Program-made: the position numbers and the translations under genes
Notes under the pieces: model-generated
The model's input: only the letters and a program-made list of their open reading frames with translations
The model's database searches: none
What the model was told of the DNA's origin: nothing
Source: a virus
Virus record (IMG/VR): IMGVR_UViG_3300032523_002073
Span: 1 to 46,327 of that record
Direction: 5' to 3' (one strand)
DNA length: 46,327 bases
In this document: piece by piece, positions 10,893 to 44,861 of the stretch
Numbering within the stretch: position 1 is the stretch's first letter
How the letters are laid out: every line of letters begins with the position of its first letter

Positions 10893-13800
10893 GTGTCGAG
10901 TCTTTATCGCTGTAAAGCGCGCGTAGGTTATCGCCCAGTAAAGTCTCAAAAGCTCATAGTTTTTGAACAGAGACAGATACAGGAGTTGTCGATAAAGTTA
11001 AAATGGCAACCTAATCAGGGCTCTGCTAATGCGGGTAAATCCACTCAAGCCACGGCTTTTACGGCAGGTTTGGACCAATCAACCTGCTCGGTTACAATCT
11101 CTGATCCTTATCTAACTGGGTTGGCATGGCCCGCACTTTTTGACGCAGCAGCACTCTATACTCAGTCAAATATCTCTGATGCTAATAACATCCTTCTTCC
11201 TTCTTGCGAAAAAGGCCAAGATCCTATAGTTGATAAGTGTGCTAAATACGTTGATGCTGAGGTGGATAGTACGGTAGATCAGGGTGGCATATACCCCTTC
11301 CTCCTACTCTCGCTGTGGTACGATGTCAAAGGAGCTTCATTTGGCACCGACTTCTACTTCAGAGTAAACGGATTCTCTGTATCTCACGGATCAAGATATC
11401 CTTCGGTAACTATACGAGGAGTGGGAGCCCGCTCGGTAATATTTAACCAGTCCTTAATCAATATGTCCTTAGAGGAAGGAGAGGATATTGACAAAGCGCT
11501 CAAAAACCTGGTTGAGAAGATGGGGTATAACGCCTCTTTCTGCTCTAATACAAATTCTGACCCTAGCAAAAAGCGTATTCTTCCACGTGCTGTACGATAC
11601 ACTGGAATAACCACGGACGAAGCTATAAAAAAAGTACTGGCTTCTGTAAATGGCAATTCGCTTTCGATGCCCACCCGAGAGTACGCAAATCAAATCTCTC
11701 TGTGCTCGAGAGGAGAAGTAGACCAGGGGTGCTCGGTGTTTTACCTCGGTAAGGGGTTGTATGAAGGCTATGAGATTAGCGGCCAGCCAGAGATTACCGC
11801 AATAGGTCTAAATTCTGAGCTGGGAGGGGTGGAGAATAATGCCGATCCGTACGTCTCCGAGGCGTTTAAAGCATCGACTTACACTGTTGGGAATGTTGTG
11901 CCGATAAAACGTAAAAAAGCGATGGAGAAGGTTAAAAAATTAGAATTTCCCTCTCTGTTTAAGCCGGTGCCGAAGCACATCAAGGGTGCGGCTGGGACTG
12001 TGGGTGTGTACGTTTGGCAGGACGTGGGCCCAGTTGTTATCAATGAGGAGGCCTCTAAAGTCTCTAAGAGTGGCCTGAGTCTTTTTGGTGTTGCTCCAAA
12101 CGGCACTACTGCAATCTCTTTTCTGAGCGGGGTCGTAGATGAAGCCGATGAGAAGCAAGGCCGAGTAAAAATAAAAACAAAATTTTCTTTGCAGATTTGC
12201 GAAAAAGAAGGCAGTAAAAAATGCTTCTTTAGGCAGATTTTTCAAGAATCAACTTCGCTATCATCAGTGAAGGTAAAAGCTAAAGACAAAGTGGCTATTA
12301 GCCAAGAAATCGGCACTTCTACAGATAAAGATCCTGAGAGTGTGAGATTTTTTATCCTGGGACACGCCGGCGCTCAAACCACTTTAAATCCGAAGCTTGT
12401 GTGGGACTGGGCCTTTCCCGAAGAAGACATACCCAAGACTCAAACTCCAGCGATCGTAGGTCCTCAAGCCGATAAAGTAGTCCCACCTGCTCCTAAAAAA
12501 CAGCTTCAGGACTGGAAACCTACCACCACTGCAAAGCCAAAAAAAGTTTTGCTTATGGCAGGGCATTTTGATGCCCGGAATACCGGCGCGCCTAACGAAT
12601 GGGAGTTAAATGCAGAGTTGGTGAAATGGGCGCAAAGGAACGCTGGGGGGTATGGAGTCTCGGACTTCATCGAGGTATATTTTCCTCCTGGGGAGGTTGC
12701 TGCCTCGAGCGCTCAGAGCCAGTACAGCAAAACCGCTGCGGCTACAGCAGCAGGCAATCAAGTAATAGAAATCCACCTGGACGGGGCACAAGGCTCGAGT
12801 GGAGTAATACCACCAAGAAAGGGCGGGATTGGGCAAATTAATGGGGCATTAGCATCATCCTACGGGGCTTTTTCCAAAGACCACCGAGATGGCCTAGGAG
12901 TTCCCAACCGAGGAGGAACTATTTTGGAGGTAGGGAGGATGGACGGAGCTACTACACAAACATTTCTCCGTGGCTCTTCGGCTCAGAAGGAGGCCCTATA
13001 CAAACAACTTATGGACCCGGTGATGCGCTCCATTGCCTCCGAAAAAACTAGAGGAGGGGGAGAGAGTGCTGCTGCGGCTAGTGACGCACCTTCAGCCACC
13101 TCCGGTGGAAGTAGTGAGGTGGCGGTGGGCCGAATTGGCAATACTGGTAGCTCTAGAGGAGCTCATTTGCATGCTCAATGGGAAGATGGAAGGGCAATAA
13201 GTGAGGCCGAAGTACGTAAGTATGTTAAGTTTGGGAGTGCAGTAGTTGTTACCTCTCCGTACAGAAGCAGCGCTCGACCTGATCATAAGGGCATAGATTT
13301 AGCTGCTAGTGGAGACTCCACTGGGGTCCCTTTGTCTATCCAAGGAGGAGCGGGGGTTGTAAATGCACAAAGAGGATGTAAGGTCGGGGACAAGGGGTGC
13401 GGCGGAGGGTTCGGTAATAATGTGCTAATAAGCACGCCGGAAGGTAACATGATTCTGGCGCACCTACAAGAAGACTCCATCCCACCAAACATCGCGGGCC
13501 TCACAACCTCTTCCGGTGGGGGTAAAGTCAAGCCGACTATCCAAGGCTCCCCAGTTGCCCAAGGGCTTAGCATAGAAACCGGGTTTAAGGGCGTGCCTAG
13601 AACCCTGCGTATCATCCCCGGCCGCACGGTGATTTCGTTTGTCACTGGGTATGATGAGTGGGTGGATAGTGGAAGGGATGTTGGTATTGATCCTGGGGTT
13701 TGGATCACGTCAAGGTTTAAGAATTGGTTTGTGACTGAGTGCGATTATAAATGGAGGGATGGGGACTTACGCCTTGGGGTGACAGGAGTGAGTGCCTGGG

Positions 13801-14513
13801 GAAATACTTCTATCCAAGTTCCTACATTTGAAAACTATATCAAAGCTCTCAAAAAGAGCGGGGAAATAAAAATTAGCAACTCATACTACGATTATATTAG
13901 GTCGTTGGGAGGGTTGAGTTGGAAGATGGATGATGGCAAAGACTCCACCGAAGTGTTATGCCCAGAGGCCCAGGCGCTCAGCTCGAGTCAGTCCGAAGGC
14001 CCAGACACCACCTCCCCCACAAACACCCAAGGGAGCTTTCCTTCAGCTAACTGCAAGACGGGCGACGCAACAAAAGATGCGATTATAAATGCTTTTTACT
14101 CTGCCGGGTTAAAAACTCCTAACGCTTTTGCTGGGGCACTTGGCAATCTTCAAGAGGAAAGCGGATTTGATCCTAATGTACATAATACTCCAATCCAGGG
14201 AGTTACCTGCGTTACAGACTCTGGAGTACCCGAGAAATGCTATGGACTAGTACAGTGGGGAGGCTCACGTAAAACTAAGGCCGTAGCAAAATGTGGACAA
14301 ACAAGCACTTTGCAATGCCAGCTTGAATTTGTGGTACAAGAAATAAAACAGCGAGGGGGCGGATTGGTAGAGGGTATGAATTCGGCAAAATCGGCATCAG
14401 CCGCGGCCGAGATCTGGAGGAATAAATATGAGGTAGCTAGTGGTGGTATAGCCAAAAGGCAACAATTTGCAGAACAAATTGTAAAGCAGATTAAGTGCGC
14501 TAAGCCACTATGA
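10893..14513 (+). CDS. Baseplate hub protein with amidase, M23 peptidase and lysozyme domains
   Basis: This 1206-residue protein starts at a GTG (10893) behind the ribosome site AAAGG. Residues 1-340 look like a tail hub domain of the gp27/late-control-D kind, with a spike-like beta segment near 410-510. Residues 550-715 are an Amidase_3 domain with zinc ligands H558 (MAGHFD), E571 and H628 (IEIHLD) and catalytic E679 (ILEVG). Residues 745-860 carry LytM/M23 motifs, with HLH at 758-760, HKGID at 798-802 and AHL at 856-858, in permuted order. Residues 900-970 return to hub-like sequence (FVTECDYKWRDGDLRLGV). Residues 1053-1200 match phage tail lysozyme (FAGALGNLQEESGF and CYGLVQWGGSRK). It should cut both cell-wall glycan and peptides during DNA injection. 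It overlaps the next gene by 4 nt. Confidence 0.85.
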   Translation: MSSLYRCKARVGYRPVKSQKLIVFEQRQIQELSIKLKWQPNQGSANAGKSTQATAFTAGLDQSTCSVTISDPYLTGLAWPALFDAAALYTQSNISDANNILLPSCEKGQDPIVDKCAKYVDAEVDSTVDQGGIYPFLLLSLWYDVKGASFGTDFYFRVNGFSVSHGSRYPSVTIRGVGARSVIFNQSLINMSLEEGEDIDKALKNLVEKMGYNASFCSNTNSDPSKKRILPRAVRYTGITTDEAIKKVLASVNGNSLSMPTREYANQISLCSRGEVDQGCSVFYLGKGLYEGYEISGQPEITAIGLNSELGGVENNADPYVSEAFKASTYTVGNVVPIKRKKAMEKVKKLEFPSLFKPVPKHIKGAAGTVGVYVWQDVGPVVINEEASKVSKSGLSLFGVAPNGTTAISFLSGVVDEADEKQGRVKIKTKFSLQICEKEGSKKCFFRQIFQESTSLSSVKVKAKDKVAISQEIGTSTDKDPESVRFFILGHAGAQTTLNPKLVWDWAFPEEDIPKTQTPAIVGPQADKVVPPAPKKQLQDWKPTTTAKPKKVLLMAGHFDARNTGAPNEWELNAELVKWAQRNAGGYGVSDFIEVYFPPGEVAASSAQSQYSKTAAATAAGNQVIEIHLDGAQGSSGVIPPRKGGIGQINGALASSYGAFSKDHRDGLGVPNRGGTILEVGRMDGATTQTFLRGSSAQKEALYKQLMDPVMRSIASEKTRGGGESAAAASDAPSATSGGSSEVAVGRIGNTGSSRGAHLHAQWEDGRAISEAEVRKYVKFGSAVVVTSPYRSSARPDHKGIDLAASGDSTGVPLSIQGGAGVVNAQRGCKVGDKGCGGGFGNNVLISTPEGNMILAHLQEDSIPPNIAGLTTSSGGGKVKPTIQGSPVAQGLSIETGFKGVPRTLRIIPGRTVISFVTGYDEWVDSGRDVGIDPGVWITSRFKNWFVTECDYKWRDGDLRLGVTGVSAWGNTSIQVPTFENYIKALKKSGEIKISNSYYDYIRSLGGLSWKMDDGKDSTEVLCPEAQALSSSQSEGPDTTSPTNTQGSFPSANCKTGDATKDAIINAFYSAGLKTPNAFAGALGNLQEESGFDPNVHNTPIQGVTCVTDSGVPEKCYGLVQWGGSRKTKAVAKCGQTSTLQCQLEFVVQEIKQRGGGLVEGMNSAKSASAAAEIWRNKYEVASGGIAKRQQFAEQIVKQIKCAKPL

Positions 14514-16949: not shown

Positions 16950-18563
16950 CTATAGGTACTGTGTTGTTGAGGACGGAGGCTTATGCCTCGCGCCTATCAT
17001 CCCAATACTGCTCGATATTCTGCGGCTACTACGCTCATAGGATGGATCATACACCAACCTGGGCAATCTTCCTCTATTCCCTCCATGCACTGCTTTTCCT
17101 CCCATAATCTCATCTCTGTACACTGTCACTCCGTACACAAACGCATCTATGAAGTCATCGTTTTTAATAAAAGGAAAAGATGTGAGCTCAGCGAGTCTAT
17201 CCGCTAGGTTTGGTAGGTTTTCGTAAAGGCTCACCAGCCCATCTTCTACGAGTGGGGCAATTGCATTAGCCCTAAGCACTTTGTCTTTATTCGGAATAAG
17301 TTCTTTAATGGTGATATTAACTGTCCGCTTAAGAGTCTGAATGAGCGGGACTCCTTGCGCCCGGCCTTCAATATAAATGCATCTAATCTTCCACTGCTTA
17401 ATCAGAGCAGGAAAAATCTTTTCAAGGTCGGGAAACTCTAACCTCTCCAATACATAATGCATAAGATGGAGTTTAGATTGGGTCTTATCATACCCCCAGA
17501 TACAAATAGCAGTATAATCGTGCATTCTCTCCGCCTTATACGCGGTGTCAATCGTCGCGTAGATATACGAATACTTCCCAAGGTTTTTTGGATGGTATTG
17601 GAACCAAGGCCCTTTAAAAATCGCTCCCTGCTCACCAGCGGGCCTCCCCTGATACAATGAGTTAAAATCCCTATCCCCAATAGACTTACGAATAGCCTCT
17701 AGGTTTTTTACGGGAAAAAACTCGGGCCAATGAGACTCTCCCAGTTTCCTCTTAAGAATATCATTTTCCTCATCTACACACAACGCGGGAACATTAAGCT
17801 CCCTCCAGCCCTCAGGGTCGGCCTTAAGCAACCTGCCGATCACATCATCGACATGGAACCTAGTACCCATCGAAATAATCGCGTGGTTAGGCAGGCCTCG
17901 GGTAAGAAACTGGGCCTGAGTCCAGGCAAAAGTTGTCTCCATTACCGTAGAGGAGTTGCCATCTGCCAGAAGGTCATCAAGAATACCTACTCCAGGCAAC
18001 TCTTCGTCACTAATTACTCCAAAACCAAAACCAGTTACGTTGCCTCCAGCCGACGCAATCTTAATCAACCCGCCATTGTTATTACGAATTGCACTTAAGT
18101 TACACTTGTCCCGATCAATCTGGCACTCAGGAAAAATCCATTTAAACTGCTCGTGAGAGATATATTCAATAACCGACCTAGAGTTCTCGTTAGTGAGCTG
18201 GAGCGCGTACGAGCTCATAATAAACTGAGCGGTAGGACTTCGGCCCATCTGCCAAGCCGGAAAAATCTTGGAGATAAGTAAAGACTTTCCTGTTCTTGGT
18301 GGAAGGGAAATGGCACTTTGCTTGTGCCCTTCTTCCCCGTCCCCAATCCTCTGAAGAAAGTCCCCGATGATATTATGAACTTTGAACGGAGTAAACTTTC
18401 CAGCGATTGGCACTTCGCTCGTAATATACCTCGCAAAAGTAAGAAAATTTGTACGGCATTTTAACCTAAGTAGCTCTTGTTTATCAGAGGCGGAGAGAGA
18501 CTTAACTCTCTTCTCCATCTCCTTAACAGTAATTTTTTCTTTTAAGCAATCCGCTTTATTCAT
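16950..18563 (-). CDS. terL: Terminase large subunit
   Basis: With the ATG at 18563 the protein has 537 residues. The ATPase part has Walker A PPRTGKS (residues 88-94), a Walker-B-like GILDDLLADG (193-202) and the coupling motif SMGTRFHVDD (231-240). The nuclease part shows ATIDTAYKAERMHDYTAI (acidic residues near 339 and 349) and a C-terminal DDFIDAFVYG. This is the psiM2/TIGR01630-like terminase type rather than the T4 gp17 type. It pumps DNA into the procapsid and cuts the concatemer. The start is set by GGGAG 8 nt upstream and a 4-nt ATGA overlap with the homing endonuclease stop; an earlier ATG at 18578 lacks spacing for a ribosome site. No small terminase subunit is visible nearby. Confidence 0.9.
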   Translation of the reverse strand: MNKADCLKEKITVKEMEKRVKSLSASDKQELLRLKCRTNFLTFARYITSEVPIAGKFTPFKVHNIIGDFLQRIGDGEEGHKQSAISLPPRTGKSLLISKIFPAWQMGRSPTAQFIMSSYALQLTNENSRSVIEYISHEQFKWIFPECQIDRDKCNLSAIRNNNGGLIKIASAGGNVTGFGFGVISDEELPGVGILDDLLADGNSSTVMETTFAWTQAQFLTRGLPNHAIISMGTRFHVDDVIGRLLKADPEGWRELNVPALCVDEENDILKRKLGESHWPEFFPVKNLEAIRKSIGDRDFNSLYQGRPAGEQGAIFKGPWFQYHPKNLGKYSYIYATIDTAYKAERMHDYTAICIWGYDKTQSKLHLMHYVLERLEFPDLEKIFPALIKQWKIRCIYIEGRAQGVPLIQTLKRTVNITIKELIPNKDKVLRANAIAPLVEDGLVSLYENLPNLADRLAELTSFPFIKNDDFIDAFVYGVTVYRDEIMGGKAVHGGNRGRLPRLVYDPSYERSSRRISSSIGMIGARHKPPSSTTQYL

Positions 18564-19411
18564 GGGGATAACTCCCATCCTTTATGGGACTTTAGTTTCT
18601 TACTCTTAACACTAGATAAATGTGCTCTATTTAAACTCAATTCTGGATATTTTCTCCAAAGTTCGGTTGTTGTTGCAGAAACTTCCCCGTAAGAACCATG
18701 TTTCCATAAAATCCTATTAAGTGGCCGATTAACGTAGTCAATTCTTTTCCATCCTCTATGGTGATTTCTACTTCCTTTAGAGACTGCATATAAATAATTT
18801 TCTCTTAGATTTTGTTCTTTGTATTTTAGTTTCATGTTGGATATACTACCTCTGTATATGCCGAAATCTTCATGTATGAACTCATATATTTTTTTATTTT
18901 TATGCTCAGAAAAAGCTACTTTTTTTGATAATTCATAACTAATGGTCCATCCCTTGTGGTGAATTCTATGGCCATTAAAAACCATGTAAAGACTGGGAAA
19001 ATTTAAGTCTGTGTAAGTTTGCACTAGCTCTTTTATGGTTCCAATAAATTTTCCATGCTGCCAATGATAGAAAATTCTATCTTTTTTCCTTTTTGCTGTT
19101 ATACATGCAGAGTACTCTGTTCTTAGAGTTTCATACACTGAACTTTTTTTAATGTTTAACCTATTAGACATGAAGAAAAAAGCCCTAAGTGCTTTTTGTG
19201 TTCTAGTACTACTCTTTCCGTACCTTTTTAAGCAAAACTTATAAATTAGTGCATGGCATAAAAAGTGTTCTCTAAGAGTTAAAATAACAGTAAAATTGTT
19301 TTTTATGAAACTTTTAGGAACTACGTGGTGTTTTTCACAAATTTGCACTGGACACTTTTTGCGTTGTTTCGCTCTTCTTATTATGTTGAAGTAAATTTTT
19401 TCATATTTCAT
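18560..19411 (-). CDS. HNH homing endonuclease with three DNA-binding repeats
   Basis: Residues 25-60 carry EKHHVVPKSF and LTLREHFLCHALIYKF, the H-H/REH-CH pattern of phage free-standing HNH homing endonucleases. The rest is three imperfect repeats of about 45 residues (113-156, 175-223, 234-281), each ending in HHKGW, HHRGW or SHKGW, likely DNA-recognition modules. Base composition is more AT-rich than the neighbours, with many Lys/Asn/Ile codons, which is a sign of recent arrival. It sits immediately upstream of terL, overlapping it by 4 nt, a common target position for homing elements. A ribosome site is not obvious. It would nick or cut an intronless or uninserted allele to spread. Confidence 0.85.
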   Translation of the reverse strand: MKYEKIYFNIIRRAKQRKKCPVQICEKHHVVPKSFIKNNFTVILTLREHFLCHALIYKFCLKRYGKSSTRTQKALRAFFFMSNRLNIKKSSVYETLRTEYSACITAKRKKDRIFYHWQHGKFIGTIKELVQTYTDLNFPSLYMVFNGHRIHHKGWTISYELSKKVAFSEHKNKKIYEFIHEDFGIYRGSISNMKLKYKEQNLRENYLYAVSKGSRNHHRGWKRIDYVNRPLNRILWKHGSYGEVSATTTELWRKYPELSLNRAHLSSVKSKKLKSHKGWELSP

Positions 19412-35758: not shown

Positions 35759-36496
35759 GTGCAAAATGTCCTTCTTGTGTCCGATATTCATTCCAGAGAC
35801 GATGCTTTAGATCGGCTCATTGGCCGGCTTTCTCGGCAAATAAACTCCGGCGCCCATATTGTATTTCTAGGAGACTTATCTGACTGCCGAGATAAACTAT
35901 ACAGGCCAGTTTGTTCTTTTCTTAAGGTATATAAGCTGGTTCGCCAGTTGTGTAACGAAGGCTATGCCACTCTTCTCCATTCTAATCATGGCCAGAATCT
36001 AACGGACTTATATTTAAATCGCCGTGATGTTCGTAAAAGTATCGTGGGGTTCAAAGACACTCTGAAGGAGTTAGATGGGATGGATAAGCTCGCTCAAAAT
36101 GACTTAATTACCTGGCTGGATTCTAGGCCCCCGACTTTTACTTACGAGTCGGAAAACAGTAAAACTTACAAAATTGCTCACGCATTTTACCAAACGGATA
36201 TCGAGGCAAAGTACAATAAAGGTACTTTACTACCTGAAGAATTAGATTTTACGATCCGTGGCCGTAAGTCTACTTGGATGTGGCAAGAGAAGAAGATTAC
36301 TAAGCGCACAGGGTTTTGGCGCAACCCTACACGCTGGGGAGCAACAGGGAATAATGTTTTGTGCTCTGGGCACTGGGCCAGAGTGCTCGTCGAAGACAAC
36401 TGTGTAGTTAATGATCCAGGAGGTGATTCTACCGACGGGACATTAGGCGTATTTAATTGCAACACACATCAACTCACTATCCACGAAAACAAATGA
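35759..36496 (+). CDS. Metallophosphoesterase
   Basis: The 245-residue protein has the calcineurin-like pattern: SDIHS (residues 8-12), FLGDLSD (about 40-46) and HSNHGQN (about 78-84, in place of the usual GNHD/E), then AHAFYQ and CSGHWAR. The substrate is unknown; phage members act on RNA 2',3'-cyclic ends or nucleotides. The start is a GTG directly after a run of nine C residues (35750-35758), with no ribosome site; the frame and the DxH motif at residue 9 make this start the only good choice. Its TGA overlaps the nrdB ATG by 4 nt, so it is translationally coupled to nrdB. Confidence 0.75.
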   Translation: MQNVLLVSDIHSRDDALDRLIGRLSRQINSGAHIVFLGDLSDCRDKLYRPVCSFLKVYKLVRQLCNEGYATLLHSNHGQNLTDLYLNRRDVRKSIVGFKDTLKELDGMDKLAQNDLITWLDSRPPTFTYESENSKTYKIAHAFYQTDIEAKYNKGTLLPEELDFTIRGRKSTWMWQEKKITKRTGFWRNPTRWGATGNNVLCSGHWARVLVEDNCVVNDPGGDSTDGTLGVFNCNTHQLTIHENK

Positions 36497-37500
36497 GTAG
36501 CATTCTTGAGCATAATAAAATGGTCTTTAAAACCGACAACGGCTTTGATTTTCCAGAGTTTTATGACTACTATGAACGCACCGTAGCCAGCGTTTGGAGG
36601 CACCAAGAAGTGGCTATGGAGGGAGATCTGCGAGATTGGCAATTTAACTCAACACCTGACGAAAGGGCTGTTATAGCCGGGATTCTAAAGGGGTTTGTAA
36701 GCGCCGAATTAGGTATAGGATGTTACTGGGCAAACGAAGTTTGTAAGATTTTTCCTAAGCCAGAGATTCAGGCTATGGCCCGGGCCTTCTCTTTTTTTGA
36801 GACCATTCATGCCGCAGCTTATTCCTACCTCAATGATGTTCTAGGGCTCAAGGACTACGAGGAGTTTATTAATGATCCTATTGCTTGTTCAAAAATAGAT
36901 ACTTTCTTCCAGAACTACTCTAGCAAAGTAGCTTTAGCGGTTTTCTCTGGAGCCGGTGAAGGAGTCTCTCTTTTTAGCTCATTTGCTGTGCTTCTAAGCT
37001 TTAATAAAGACGGAAGGTACAAAGGCCTGGCTCAAATCATCTCCTGGTCCGCTATCGACGAAGCAACTCACTCTGAAGCGGGATGCTTGCTCTTTCGCCG
37101 CCTAGTAGAAGAAACTGGGTTAAGTGATGACGAGCAAAAAGCCATCTATGACGGCTTCCAACTCGTTATTGAGAAGGAGTTTGCGTTTATAGACCATATT
37201 TTTAACTCATCTGAAATCAGCTCGATTGATGCGGAGTCGTTGAAAGCGTATATAACCAACCGCGCCAATGAGCGTTTAATTACGCTAGGGCTGGAGCAGG
37301 GATTTTCTCTCTCCACTGAAGAGCTCTCTAGAGCAAAATTACTTGCGGCATGGTTTGATCCGATGATAAAAGGAGCGAGCAGCTCTGACTTTTTTGCGCA
37401 AAGTAAATCCGGTGATAACTACGTGGCTAAACCAGCTCAGGATTATATGAGTGTAAATCTAGATAAACTAGACTTAGACTCCTGCCTATCTTATACTTAA
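36493..37500 (+). CDS. nrdB: Ribonucleotide reductase class I, small (radical) subunit
   Basis: The 335-residue protein starts at MSSILEHNK, the ATG overlapping the upstream TGA. Iron ligands are visible as E103 and H106 (SFFETIHAAAY), E156 (GAGEG), E190 and H193 (IDEATHSE), with an Asp at 45 or 48 in GDLRDW. The tyrosyl radical residue fits Y110. It pairs with NrdA to reduce ribonucleotides to deoxyribonucleotides. The C-terminal DLDSCLSYT is a plausible NrdA-docking tail. The Tyr at the radical position argues against the Mn-Fe Phe-type family. Confidence 0.93.
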   Translation: MSSILEHNKMVFKTDNGFDFPEFYDYYERTVASVWRHQEVAMEGDLRDWQFNSTPDERAVIAGILKGFVSAELGIGCYWANEVCKIFPKPEIQAMARAFSFFETIHAAAYSYLNDVLGLKDYEEFINDPIACSKIDTFFQNYSSKVALAVFSGAGEGVSLFSSFAVLLSFNKDGRYKGLAQIISWSAIDEATHSEAGCLLFRRLVEETGLSDDEQKAIYDGFQLVIEKEFAFIDHIFNSSEISSIDAESLKAYITNRANERLITLGLEQGFSLSTEELSRAKLLAAWFDPMIKGASSSDFFAQSKSGDNYVAKPAQDYMSVNLDKLDLDSCLSYT

Positions 37501-38292: not shown

Positions 38293-41241
38293 ATGTCCCA
38301 AGCTCAAGTACCCTCCTGGATGACCCAGGAGGCAATAGACACCCTTTCTCGTGGGTATCTTAGAGCCGGAGAAACTCCAAGAGGAATGTTTGAGCGGGTA
38401 GCAAAAACCGCAACAAAATACCTAGGGCATCCACCAGGCATCGGTGACGATATTTTTGAAATTCTCTGGAATGGGTACGTTGGAGGAGCATCTCCGGTCC
38501 TTAGTAACTTTGGAGCGAGTTCGGGTCTTCCAATTAGTTGTTATTCTAACCACATTTCAGATTCTGTTCCTTCCATCTACTCTCACTTAAAAGAATCAGC
38601 GGCGCTCTCTCAACACGGAGGAGGAGTAGGTACTTATTTTGGTGATATACGCCCATCCGGTGCCCCAATCAGCTCTGGCGGCAAAAGCACAGGAGTCGTG
38701 CCTTGGATGCGGCAGTTTGACCAATGTGCCTCCGTGGTTAGTCAAGGAGGCGTGAGAAGAGGAAGCTTTGCTCTTTACCTCCCAATAGACCACCCGGACC
38801 TTTCTGAAGTGCTCCGTACAAAAGACCACTCACAAGGCGACCCAAGGGACTTTGTTGATAGCAACCTCGCGGTTACTATATCAGATGAGTGGGTGGAGAG
38901 TCTGCTTGCAGGAGACCGCGATAAGCAGAAGTTGTTTGGAGAGGTGCTTAAGGCCAGGTTAGTGTCAGGGTCTCCTTACATAGTTTTTATTGACAATGCT
39001 AACCGCTCCAACCCCGAGTGCTATAAGCAGCGCGGCCTGAGTGTTAAACTTAGTAATCTATGCTTTACTGGGGATACTCTTGTAGCAGTTGCTGATGGAA
39101 GAAATGCTGTTCCTATTTCAGAACTTGTAGATACATACTTTGATGTATATTCCGCCCGCAAAAGAAAGTCTAATGGTGGAGGCTTTATTAACAAGTGGAC
39201 AACGGAAATTAAACCAGCTACTGCATTTAAAACTGGCACAAAAGAAATCATTGAAGTTGAACTTGAAGACGGAAGCACATTTCGATGTACTCCAGACCAC
39301 CTTCTGGCCCGCAGAGACTGCAGTTGGGTAGAAGCAAAAGATTCTGTTGGAGAGATTCTAGAACCCTTCTCATCTTTTGAAAATAGTTGCGGCCATAAAA
39401 TGATTAACACTGTTTCTAATGGTGCGGCTAGACAAAGCCGAATGATCTGGGAAAATAAAAATGGTGCTGTTTCTCCAGGCTATCACGTTGATCATATTAT
39501 CTCACGTGCGGGAGATAACATTGAAAATCTTCAGTTACTCTCGAAAGCTAGCCATTTAGCCAAAACGGCACAGGAAAGAATTGGAAAAAACAATCCTATT
39601 CACAAAGTTGATTCAAAGTTTCATTCTGAATATATATCAGCAGCGATGACAGGGAAGAAAAATCCTTTATTTAGTGGAATTGATAACTATGAGTTAATTG
39701 AGCTCGGTAAACAAATCTACCGAGAAACTGAATCTTTTACGAAGAAAGATTATCTTGTCTTGCGAGAAATGGGCCATAATGTTCCTCAATCTTTTTCAAA
39801 TTATAGGTTTGAAGGGTCTTTTAAAGAGTATCGCTCTTATGTTATTGGCGAAAAAATTTATAACGGAGAATACGAAACTTCTCCCTCGGCCCCAGTAAAT
39901 CAAAGAAAGTTAAAAAATCAACTTATAGAGCAGGAAATTGCTTTACTTAAAAGCACCGGGCTTAAAGTTGTGAGTGTAAGACCGGTGGGTATTGAGGACG
40001 TCTATGACCTTAGAGTAGAAGACAATCATAACTTCTATATTGTTACTAACGAGAAACAAAATAGTATTCTTTCTGGGGTATTAGTACACAACTGTAGTGA
40101 AATTTTCCTTCATACGGACGAAAATCATACCTTTGTGTGTGTGCTATCCTCAATCAACCTGGCCAAGTGGGAAGAATGGAAAGAGTGGAAAGGCCCAAAA
40201 ACTGGGCTCACCGTCCCTGAGTTAACTGTGTATCTTCTTGATGCAGTGGTTGAAGAATTTTGTTACAAGGCGGACCGTATCACTTCGATGGGCCGGGCAG
40301 TAAGATTCGCTCGTAAGTCTAGGGCGTTGGGGCTCGGGACTATGGGACTCCATGCGCTCTATCAGTCGAAAGGGCTCGCCTTTTCCTCTCCTGAAGCCCG
40401 GGACCTTAATGTTAAAGTACATAAGTTTATTAAACAGAAGGCTCTAAAGGCCTCTAGGGAGATGGCAGGGATTTATGGTGAGCCGGAATGGTGCCTTGGC
40501 ACGGGGCTTAGGCACACTCACCTTATGGCAATCGCTCCAACCAAGTCCAACTCAGTGATTTGTGGAGCTGGGAGTGAAGGCATTGAACCTATTGATGCTA
40601 ATTATTATGTTGCTAAGCAGGCCAAGGGAACATTTGTTAGAAAAAACAGATACCTGGAGCTCCACTTAGAAAAAATAGATAAGAACACTGACGAGGTATG
40701 GGAGTCAATTATGGAGTTTAGGGGCTCTGTACAGCACCTGGAGTTTTTAGGCAGCCACACAAAAGAAATATTTAAAACTGCCCGAGAGATTGATCAATTT
40801 GAGCTAATTAGGCAGGCGGCAGATAGGCAAAAATACATCTGCCAGGGCCAATCCCTCAACTTGTTTGTAGATCCTGAAGAGTCCCCAGAGCGGCTCTTTA
40901 TGCTCCACTTGAGTGCTTGGAAAGCTGGGCTTAAATCACTTTATTACTTAAAAAGCAGCTCGATGCTTGTTAAGAAAAAACAACCAAGCCAGACTAAAGT
41001 AGCAAAAATAGTTACCAAGTCGGACTGCCCATACTGCTCCATGGCTAAATCTCTTCTTAAAAGTCAAGGATGGATTGTAGATGAAACTGATCGTTCGGAC
41101 TTCCCAGACTCCGAATGGATATGGAAAACCGTGCCTCAAATCTGGCTTAATGGCCAGCACATCGGAGGGTACAACCGACTCACAGAAAGAATGGGGCAAG
41201 GAGAAAAATCGTATGGAGAATGCGTTTCTTGCGAAGGTTGA
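38293..41241 (+). CDS. nrdA: Ribonucleotide reductase large subunit with intein and fused glutaredoxin
   Basis: The 982-residue precursor has an intein at residues 257-600, leaving a 638-residue mature protein. Extein features include C83 (ISCYSN) and C616 (FVCVLSS), the redox pair, and the thiyl-radical Cys, which is the intein's +1 residue C601 in NLC/SEI. Y884-Y885 are the radical-transfer pair. There is no N-terminal ATP cone, so dATP control is probably absent. Residues 902-966 are a glutaredoxin with CPYC at 912-915 and a TVPQI cis-Pro loop at 946-950. The last residues, ECVSCEG, are the usual NrdA redox tail. The start is set by GAGAAG and the ATG at 38293. It makes dNDPs with NrdB and reduces itself through the fused domain. 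Confidence 0.93.
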   Translation: MSQAQVPSWMTQEAIDTLSRGYLRAGETPRGMFERVAKTATKYLGHPPGIGDDIFEILWNGYVGGASPVLSNFGASSGLPISCYSNHISDSVPSIYSHLKESAALSQHGGGVGTYFGDIRPSGAPISSGGKSTGVVPWMRQFDQCASVVSQGGVRRGSFALYLPIDHPDLSEVLRTKDHSQGDPRDFVDSNLAVTISDEWVESLLAGDRDKQKLFGEVLKARLVSGSPYIVFIDNANRSNPECYKQRGLSVKLSNLCFTGDTLVAVADGRNAVPISELVDTYFDVYSARKRKSNGGGFINKWTTEIKPATAFKTGTKEIIEVELEDGSTFRCTPDHLLARRDCSWVEAKDSVGEILEPFSSFENSCGHKMINTVSNGAARQSRMIWENKNGAVSPGYHVDHIISRAGDNIENLQLLSKASHLAKTAQERIGKNNPIHKVDSKFHSEYISAAMTGKKNPLFSGIDNYELIELGKQIYRETESFTKKDYLVLREMGHNVPQSFSNYRFEGSFKEYRSYVIGEKIYNGEYETSPSAPVNQRKLKNQLIEQEIALLKSTGLKVVSVRPVGIEDVYDLRVEDNHNFYIVTNEKQNSILSGVLVHNCSEIFLHTDENHTFVCVLSSINLAKWEEWKEWKGPKTGLTVPELTVYLLDAVVEEFCYKADRITSMGRAVRFARKSRALGLGTMGLHALYQSKGLAFSSPEARDLNVKVHKFIKQKALKASREMAGIYGEPEWCLGTGLRHTHLMAIAPTKSNSVICGAGSEGIEPIDANYYVAKQAKGTFVRKNRYLELHLEKIDKNTDEVWESIMEFRGSVQHLEFLGSHTKEIFKTAREIDQFELIRQAADRQKYICQGQSLNLFVDPEESPERLFMLHLSAWKAGLKSLYYLKSSSMLVKKKQPSQTKVAKIVTKSDCPYCSMAKSLLKSQGWIVDETDRSDFPDSEWIWKTVPQIWLNGQHIGGYNRLTERMGQGEKSYGECVSCEG
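39061..40092 (+). mobile_element. HNH-containing intein within nrdA
   Basis: The intein of 344 residues starts with C257 (CFTGDTLVAVADG) and ends VLVHN600, followed by C601. Splicing blocks include TPDH (residues 333-336) of block B and VYDLRVEDNHNFYI (570-583) of block F. The homing domain has GYHVDHIISRAGDNIENLQLLS at 396-417, an HNH type. The insertion point is the conserved NLC/SEI active-site motif. Confidence 0.95.
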
Positions 41242-43080: not shown

Positions 43081-43650
43081 ATGGCACAGTTTTATTTTAG
43101 TTTCGGAAAAAAACCAGAGACAGAAAAACAAACAATTATCCAAGCCGCTATTCTTTGGAGTACTTTAGAACCTTTAATTGGCTGGGTACTACAACTCTTC
43201 AATACCAAGATCTTACCTGAAGTAAAACCTGAGACTCTAAAAATTATTTTTGACGAGTTGGATATATTTTGGCTGAGAAATGCTACCTTTAAGCACTATG
43301 AAGATAACCAGGTAAGAATTATTATTGCGATGATGGTTCGGGCCGCTGAAAACAAAGAGTTTACTCGGCAAGAACTTCTATCCATAGTGGATTACATTCA
43401 GCGTAAGTGGGTGCCACAAGAAGCTCTTAAGAAAATATTTACTCAGACCGATGAGGTTATAGAGGCGAGAGTTGTAGCTACAATAGACGAAGCTATTGAG
43501 CTATATGAAAAAAAGTATGAAGAGCAGCCTCTCACCCCGGAAGAATTTGTGGCCAGTACTGCTCAGATTATTTATCACAAGCCGGATGGAAGTATGGCGC
43601 AAGACCTGCTAGGTGGTGAACTTCAAATCAAGAATAAACTATTTTATTAG
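43081..43650 (+). CDS. Protein of unknown function, helical
   Basis: The 189-residue protein starts MAQFYFSFGKKPETEK, behind a GCAGGA ribosome site 7 nt upstream. It is predicted to be nearly all helical, with a hydrophobic helix (AAILWSTLEPLIGWVLQLF) near residues 22-40 and repeated Glu-rich helices. No family is recognised and there is no signal peptide. Tail-to-tail overlap of 4 nt with the methyltransferase gene closes the plus-strand operon. A weak CTAAATA lies just upstream of the ribosome site, too close to be a normal promoter. Confidence 0.55.
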   Translation: MAQFYFSFGKKPETEKQTIIQAAILWSTLEPLIGWVLQLFNTKILPEVKPETLKIIFDELDIFWLRNATFKHYEDNQVRIIIAMMVRAAENKEFTRQELLSIVDYIQRKWVPQEALKKIFTQTDEVIEARVVATIDEAIELYEKKYEEQPLTPEEFVASTAQIIYHKPDGSMAQDLLGGELQIKNKLFY

Positions 43651-44861
43651 AGTGACCAAATAGGCTTCATGCAGTCTTTAGTAACAATATTATTTTGCCG
43701 AAGAATCTTATAGGATCCGTCGGGTTTGACTTCTGGGTCTATCCAGGTTCTATTGCCATCTAGGGCCTGGGCGATCTCCTCGACCCAATCCCCAGCTGTG
43801 CACGCAGGGACATTTTGGCATATTACGTTGCTGTTTTTGGTGGGGATATGAACCTTTTCTGCATAGTCGGCAGGAAATCCCATGAGTGCTAAGCCTTCGG
43901 CCACTGTTAGCCACCTATCCTCGTAGGGATGTTGGAGCATTGGCAAACTTTTCCACATCAGCGCCTGAGTTTTTACCCAAGCAAGTTTCATACTCCCGTC
44001 CATAATATTCAGCCCTCTACGTTTTTTATCTAAAGTGTAGTTGAGCCAGCGATTAACCTTCTCTTCTTTGATAACACGGGCAGCCTCTTCAAGCCATCCA
44101 GAGTCATAGATAACATTCCAAACACTAACCATGCGGGTAGAAGCTACTGCCTTCAGAATGTCTTGCTTAGTAGAGCCCCGGTACTTTTCTTGAATAAACT
44201 GCCACAGGGGGTCAGTGGAAGGCGCCGGTTTGTTGCTAACGGGATCAGATGGGGCAAACTCTCCGTCCCTTAAGAGCTGGTGAAATGGCACGTGGGGCCT
44301 TTTAATAGGCTCGAGGACAGGGACTTTATCACCCTTCCACAGGAAGAAAAATGAACGAGTTCGTTCTTGGGGGATTCCATGGTTTAGCGATGTGGTCTTT
44401 ACCAGGCTCATCGTATACCCATGGCGCTGGGCCAAGTCGTTGATTCGCTCGGCGAACACTTCGCCCATCTTTGAGTACAGGGCCGGTGCGTTCTCCACCA
44501 TCATGGCTTTAGGCTTGATTTTCGTCATAGCGAACTCGGACCCGTTAAGCATGTGCATATTGCTTGGTGCACTGCATCCACGCGGGTTGTTTACTTTGTC
44601 CCCAGATGTAGTATTTCCCATACTCAAACCCGCACATGGAGGAAGACATGTCATAATATCCACATACTGAGAAGGATACTTGCCCTCATCCAGCTCAAAG
44701 TAGGGGATATCAGAAAAATACTTCAAACAGTATTGATCGTTAGCACCAAAAGCACTCCCCCATGACGCTATCCATTCTGGAGGCTTGCCCAGCGCCTTAG
44801 TCGTTCCTAAAACGCTCCCACCAACAAGAGGAATAACATGACCGTGGGTATAGCTAGGCAT
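43647..44861 (-). CDS. DNA (cytosine-5) methyltransferase
   Basis: The 404-residue protein has the C5-MTase motifs: motif IV with catalytic C76 in CLPPCAGLS, motif VI VENAP (residues 122-126), motif VIII PQERTRS (164-170) and motif X-like QNVPACTAG near the C-terminus. Motif I is unusual (PLVGGSVLGT instead of a clear FxGxG), though the Trp-Ser/Ala-Phe-Glu region that follows may replace it. It probably methylates cytosine at a specific site to protect phage DNA from host restriction. No partner restriction gene is present. It is on its own strand and divergent from the cytidylyltransferase gene. Confidence 0.85.
   Translation of the reverse strand: MPSYTHGHVIPLVGGSVLGTTKALGKPPEWIASWGSAFGANDQYCLKYFSDIPYFELDEGKYPSQYVDIMTCLPPCAGLSMGNTTSGDKVNNPRGCSAPSNMHMLNGSEFAMTKIKPKAMMVENAPALYSKMGEVFAERINDLAQRHGYTMSLVKTTSLNHGIPQERTRSFFFLWKGDKVPVLEPIKRPHVPFHQLLRDGEFAPSDPVSNKPAPSTDPLWQFIQEKYRGSTKQDILKAVASTRMVSVWNVIYDSGWLEEAARVIKEEKVNRWLNYTLDKKRRGLNIMDGSMKLAWVKTQALMWKSLPMLQHPYEDRWLTVAEGLALMGFPADYAEKVHIPTKNSNVICQNVPACTAGDWVEEIAQALDGNRTWIDPEVKPDGSYKILRQNNIVTKDCMKPIWSL

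Follow-up and report, generated by a model that had tools for sequence, protein, structure and literature searches.

The window analysed here is an IMG/VR virus record of 46327 bases, and one of its genes (10893..14513, + strand, as are all domains of its product) raises the question of how several cell wall hydrolase domains are built into, and maintained in, a single tail-tip protein. The gene is an uninterrupted open reading frame whose translation gives 1206 amino acids (aa); it starts with GTG, and GAGAAAGG, which resembles a ribosome-binding site, lies just 5' of the start. The original prediction, made from the sequence alone, read this frame as a baseplate hub protein with three different peptidoglycan hydrolase-type domains. 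The frame and the hub identity were confirmed, the latter by Foldseek hub matches, and all three domains are present, although on evidence of differing strength. The combination itself, which had been taken for the surprising part, has precedents in A-1(L) gp15 and in the enterococcal DA4 proteins. What had been missed is that the halves of the M23 peptidase are permuted and that the hydrolases are swapped between hubs. The domain order is hub, degenerate M23-like domain, Amidase_3-like domain, permuted M23, second hub segment and PF18013 lysozyme. We give a probability of roughly 80% to the reading that an S-TIM5-like contractile cyanophage tail-tip hub doubles as a multi-enzyme peptidoglycan cutter with exchangeable cassettes and a permuted M23 domain.

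In a canonical M23 enzyme, the HxxGxD half lies N-terminal to the HxH half. In the window protein the M23 domain (aa 740-872, 13110..13508) has its halves reversed with respect to solved M23 structures: the HxH half, with VGRIGNTGSSRGAHLH at aa 745-760, precedes the canonical N-terminal part, TSPYRSSARPDHKGIDL...ILAHL. The HxH half, which is the canonical C-terminal part, spans aa 740-783 (13110..13241; H758 and H760) and corresponds to PF01551 positions 69-91 and to 3slu 307-337; the HxxGxD...AHL half spans aa 786-872 (13248..13508; H798, D802 and H857) and corresponds to 3slu 244-299. A family profile built from 21 members was run against PDB sequences and matched 3slu at E=1.3e-16, with query 62-118 on chain positions 244-299 and query 4-34 on 307-337. 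The halves are reversed likewise in the 6muk and 9m7n alignments, and most of the stronger M23 matches are tabulated with two stretches. The M23/LytM-type peptidase of the original prediction is thus upheld by the family profile. Against Pfam M23 the window protein gave a fragment only (profile positions 68-88), below the cut-off, a poor score due to the circular permutation of the domain. The M23 domains of homologue L007 and of S-TIM54 exceed that cut-off, with query 66-128 on profile 2-56 and query 54-109 on profile 2-54, respectively.

The permuted order is kept in 36/36 distinct homologues, from which mutually identical sequences had been removed beforehand. With half-profiles, the window protein reads B then A and five canonical phage M23 controls (cyanophage tail M23 proteins of S-PM2, ACG-2014f, RB11-B, Ma-LMM01 and A-1(L)) read A then B; the window sequence was included in the half-profiles, hence its half-profile E-values are not independent. 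H758, H760, H798, D802 and H857 are all present in the window protein, and almost every one of the 36 homologues has the equivalent residues. Judged by its sequence, the M23 domain of this hub family is best regarded as related to M23 with a circular permutation.

We also compared the order of the halves between viral and prokaryotic M23 loci. Among loci retrieved with one M23 motif, permuted ones made up 40/80 of the viral and 0/80 of the prokaryotic set (64 of the latter being canonical when judged alike). As the permuted domain served as query, the search favoured permuted viral loci from the outset and the prokaryotic zero is the useful number; moreover, the 40 permuted viral loci are not independent, since many are contigs from the same hub family and some were retrieved twice. 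Three candidates that were collinear or nearly so in tblastn (Gordonia lysin A, Mastigocladus phage CHP58 and a human-gut contig) were rejected as canonical M23 by sequence.

Permuted M23-like domains were also seen in other phage proteins. The T7-like cyanophage internal virion protein P60 gp33 (L207, 2778-5780) has at its end a PF18013-like lysozyme that stays below the cut-off and, behind it, a permuted M23-like domain carrying HLD. In tape measures of Acinetobacter and Moraxella phages (L018, 958-5268; L044, 664-5052) such a domain is present with HLD for HLH. Synechococcus phage S-EIVl and contigs related to it encode small stand-alone permuted M23-like proteins (L209, 3052-3798; L112, 3980-4627), and an otherwise different freshwater phage tail-type protein has a permuted M23 domain as well (L067, 2960-4621; also L068-L070). 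The second His of HxH is replaced by Asp in the S-EIVl, P60 and Acinetobacter proteins, and such HLD-type copies may be inactive. We hold with moderate confidence that these sequences form an undescribed permuted M23 branch in phages, found in at least five unrelated protein contexts and unseen in the sampled prokaryotic genomes, and that its place in S-TIM5-type hubs is a cassette slot of rapid turnover, much as an arms race over passage through the peptidoglycan would produce. The contexts would be the S-TIM5-type hubs, P60 gp33, the Acinetobacter/Moraxella tape measures, the freshwater tail protein and the S-EIVl-type small protein.

Exchange between hubs was measured by windowed DNA identity together with protein identity per module. 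Of the seven pairs whose N-terminal hub regions are 97% or more identical, six diverge in one to three hydrolase modules, which share only 33-65% identity. Between S-TIM5 and S-TIM66 the hub is 99% and the lysozyme 100% identical, while M23 is 47% identical. M23 identity is 52% in L024/L025 and 42% in L030/L041, and lysozyme identity is 41% in L002/L006 and 53% in L007/L008. The amidase (65%), M23 (39%) and lysozyme (33%) all differ between L050 and L062, whose intervening hub segment is 100% identical. Thus, it can be concluded that the hydrolase domains are exchangeable cassettes in a near-constant hub. L004 and L025, two hubs with differences in amidase and lysozyme, share a similar M23 cassette (71% identity) in which Tyr replaces H798.

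Several points weigh against our reading. Most of the swap pairs are metagenomic contigs, for which chimeric assembly is possible; S-TIM5 and S-TIM66, however, are isolates with complete genomes, which argues against an assembly artefact for that pair. By Foldseek, the isolated permuted domain gave no significant match to a solved M23 structure in the PDB, which may be expected from a sequential search of permuted connectivity but gives no positive evidence of an M23 fold. The amidase assignment stays under Pfam's threshold in every member scanned. Finally, a zinc ligand is lost in some relatives (Tyr for H798 in L004 and L025, Asp for H760 in L034 and L041), and such M23 copies may be inactive or binding-only. 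These four variants, the HLD motif of the S-EIVl, P60 and Acinetobacter proteins, and the general observation that degenerate M23/LytM domains are common all speak for an alternative in which the lysozyme is the sole active domain and the other hydrolase-like domains serve chiefly in wall binding or structure. We find this alternative unlikely, since the window protein keeps the five M23 residues listed above and amidase H558, E569, H628 and E679, and since lysis of Anabaena cells was obtained with two domains, the endoglucanase and the M23-type peptidase, of the analogous hub of Anabaena phage A-1(L) (PMC10966104).

The joint behaviour of the two M23 halves bears on another explanation, in which they are not one domain: the HxH half would come from the upstream M23-like domain, with the amidase inserted between, and the HxxGxD half from a truncated second M23. 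Tandem remnants are conceivable, given the M23-like domain immediately upstream (aa 395-520). That domain is, however, complete by itself, and in amidase-less relatives a linker follows its end. Moreover, in S-TIM5/S-TIM66 and in L024/L025 both halves are swapped jointly and the upstream domain is unaltered (98-99% identical), which indicates that the halves are one module. Reversed halves also co-occur in proteins that have no upstream domain (the Acinetobacter/Moraxella tape measures, P60 gp33, S-EIVl and L067), and the isolated piece of aa 735-876 folds confidently in silico as one compact unit, with a predicted local distance difference test score (pLDDT) of 92 and a predicted template modelling score of 0.86. 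We thus consider this explanation very improbable. Against viral predicted structures, the isolated domain had exactly four significant matches, among them the S-TIM5 hub, a tape measure fragment and P60 gp33. The chance that the protein is an ordinary tail lysin, an unremarkable fusion of three domains in canonical order, is close to nil: hub, PF18013 and M23 are indeed already known together (NF5 Gp16, phi29 gp13 and enterococcal DA3; PMC10194240), but the M23 order is reversed in the hub family while the neighbouring cyanophage tail M23 controls are canonical, which refutes the canonical-order reading.

For the multi-enzyme hub we propose the following course of events. The hub fold would hold the tail tip, the cassette region between the two hub segments would bear the optional amidase and the permuted M23 endopeptidase, and the PF18013 lysozyme would form the C-terminus. 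By analogy with A-1(L) (PMC10966104), the hub may be driven through the outer membrane on infection. The lysozyme is predicted to cut the glycan, the amidase the MurNAc-peptide amide and the M23 enzyme the cross-link, and together these cuts would breach the peptidoglycan locally so that the tube could pass. The permuted order most likely arose from tandem M23 duplication and partial deletion, the standard route to permutation, and this origin seems plausible because an M23-like domain adjoins upstream. With permutation, both termini would come to lie at the HL...GQxIG hairpin, at a distance from the substrate groove, so that the enzyme could be inserted between hub segments without the chain crossing that groove. 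The hydrolase units would be replaced through recombination far faster than the hub.

M23/LytM is among the most studied wall-peptidase families. The permuted branch accounts for the sub-threshold scores of standard profiles, and under-annotation in phage tails is likely. The exact exchange of modules suggests that peptidoglycan penetration, beyond receptor binding alone, evolves fast in cyanophage entry; S-TIM5 and S-TIM66, in which the gene differs almost only in the M23 unit, make this testable. It is plausible that three putative activities serve a thick cyanobacterial wall, as the original prediction proposed. However, S-TIM5, S-TIM54 and S-TIM66, all cultured Synechococcus phages, have no amidase in their hubs, hence three hydrolases are not obligatory in the S-TIM5 phage group.

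The kinship of the window virus was assessed by homology and gene order. In a tblastn search of 50,697 phage records, full-length hub relatives were found solely in the Aurunvirus group S-TIM5, S-TIM54, S-TIM61 and S-TIM66, cyanophages of marine Synechococcus; identity to the window hub is about 29-31% over the best pieces, and the annotation of these homologues is virion structural protein. Additional full-length relatives were recovered by IMG/VR scans. Gene order and strands in the window are those of S-TIM5 (PhoH, two short genes, hub, sigma factor, TerL), and by these comparisons the window virus is a member of the cyanophage S-TIM5 group. In one amidase-less hub homologue (L009, 6001-8154) the reading frame ends at aa 717 and the match runs to the gene end, which may reflect a sequencing error, a frameshift or a broken gene.

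The N-terminal hub region (aa 1-385, 10893..12047) is of VgrG/gp27 type according to a Foldseek search of the AlphaFold2 (AF2) model against the PDB. Its matches were 7aef_q (Afp8-type), VgrG 8gra/9jg9, E217 8eon_E and T4 1k28_D, at E 1e-5 to 1e-2 with a model of modest confidence: over residues 2-1200 the overall pLDDT was 65, with 75-90 in the hydrolase domains and moderate values in the N-terminal hub region. The fold agrees with that of a contractile-tail baseplate hub of gp27/VgrG type. The full model also matched Amidase_3 enzymes, M23 enzymes and phi29 gp13. The C-terminal hub segment (aa 893-1040, 13569..14012), kept in all complete relatives, is among the best-conserved parts of alignments A1/A2 and is 97-100% identical in pairs with exchanged flanking hydrolase cassettes. 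A LAGLIDADG_2 match at aa 937-1020 (E=0.0017, below cut-off) was rejected as chance, for only 1/24 relatives match despite the conservation of the region. Between hub and amidase, weak to moderate evidence points to a degenerate M23-like domain devoid of catalytic residues (aa 395-520, 12075..12452): PF01551 positions 10-76 are matched at a sub-threshold E=0.019, the best PDB match of the family profile is SpoIIQ (E=0.008), and no conserved His was found among 17 relatives.

The Amidase_3-like domain occupies aa 535-722 (12495..13058), with H558, E569 and H628 as predicted zinc ligands and E679 as predicted catalytic residue. These four residues are invariant in 8 relatives and in all 11 amidase-bearing homologues. 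The original prediction had named H558, H628 and E679 correctly and placed the remaining glutamate two positions off, at E571, where relatives have E, K or A. Foldseek matched the domain to PlyPSA (1xov, E=2.6e-4) and, with probability 1.00 and E about 4e-3 to 8e-3, to CwlV (1jwq) and Rv3717 (4m6h), and aa 534-713 match PHROG 30576, a Ma-LMM01-type baseplate family, at E=3.7e-15; identity is 29% to the C-terminus of Ma-LMM01 gp94 and 39% over 115 aa to the RB11-B tail protein. Pfam gave no amidase match in the window protein, and the best of 8 relatives reached E=0.051, which stays short of the Amidase_3 (PF01520) threshold; the amidase profile run against PDB sequences gave just chance matches to reaction-centre proteins. 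A Lipase_GDSL_2 match (E about 0.09) was dismissed. The structure matches lend moderate support to an Amidase_3 fold. The amidase was found in 11/36 homologues and is missing from the hubs of S-TIM5, S-TIM54, S-TIM61 and S-TIM66. Since its presence also differs between the closely related hubs L004 and L024/L025 (about 80% identical), it seems to be easily gained or lost.

The C-terminal phage tail lysozyme was predicted correctly. PF18013 matches aa 1061-1198 (14073..14486; predicted catalytic E1089) at E=1.8e-21 and 77.2 bits, above the Pfam cut-off of 28.2. It is matched in 23/24 relatives, the catalytic-type Glu is invariant in the 36 homologues, and the nearest structures are phi29 gp13 and NF5 Gp16; the identity of this predicted enzyme domain is certain.

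Some other genes of the window deserve mention. A homing/HNH endonuclease gene (18560-19411, -) adjoins the terminase large subunit. The ribonucleotide reductase large subunit (38293-41241, +) has a C-terminal thioredoxin/glutaredoxin-like domain (aa 895-965) and what appears to be an intein-like insert with an HNH endonuclease region at about aa 386-456; the small subunit lies at 36457-37500. A C5 cytosine DNA methylase is encoded at 43647-44861 (-; PF00145, E=5.9e-16).

Compared with known systems, three hydrolase domains in one tail protein are already known in kind. The hub gp15 of A-1(L) has lysozyme, endoglucanase and peptidase domains (PMC10966104), and enterococcal tail proteins of type DA4 unite an endopeptidase, a PF18013 lysozyme and an amidase (PMC10194240); on this evidence, we gave up the idea that a hub with three hydrolases is without precedent. 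A description of a circularly permuted M23/LytM domain was not found in the open-access literature searched, which is no proof of absence; a 2022 review of M23/LytM does not mention permutation (PMC9662197), nor does any annotation seen. A precedent for a permuted catalytic domain related to wall peptidases is offered by the circularly permuted NlpC/P60 domains (YaeF/LRAT-like; cited in PMC6403190), which have an unrelated cysteine-enzyme fold. A-1(L) gp15, also a cyanophage hub, resembles the window protein in bearing three additional domains of hydrolase type, one of them an M23-type peptidase, but it has a double-psi beta-barrel endoglucanase, a canonical-order M23 and no amidase, and its domains sit at other positions within the hub. 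NF5 Gp16 (9m7n), a tail-associated lysin, and phi29 gp13 (3csq) likewise combine a PF18013-type lysozyme with M23, which is canonical there, and have no amidase. In Microcystis phage Ma-LMM01 the functions are split over two genes: gp94 is a baseplate protein with the same amidase type at its end, and gp95 holds a canonical M23 plus, going by sister-phage annotation, a lysozyme part. T4-like cyanophage RB11-B has the same amidase type in one tail protein and a separate, canonical M23 in the next. Ma-LMM01 and T4-like cyanophages therefore possess the trio of amidase, M23 and lysozyme, distributed over separate proteins. S-TIM5 gp111 (YP_007006114) and the hubs of S-TIM54, S-TIM61 and S-TIM66 share with the window the gene neighbourhood, the permuted M23 and the lysozyme, and differ from it by having no amidase.

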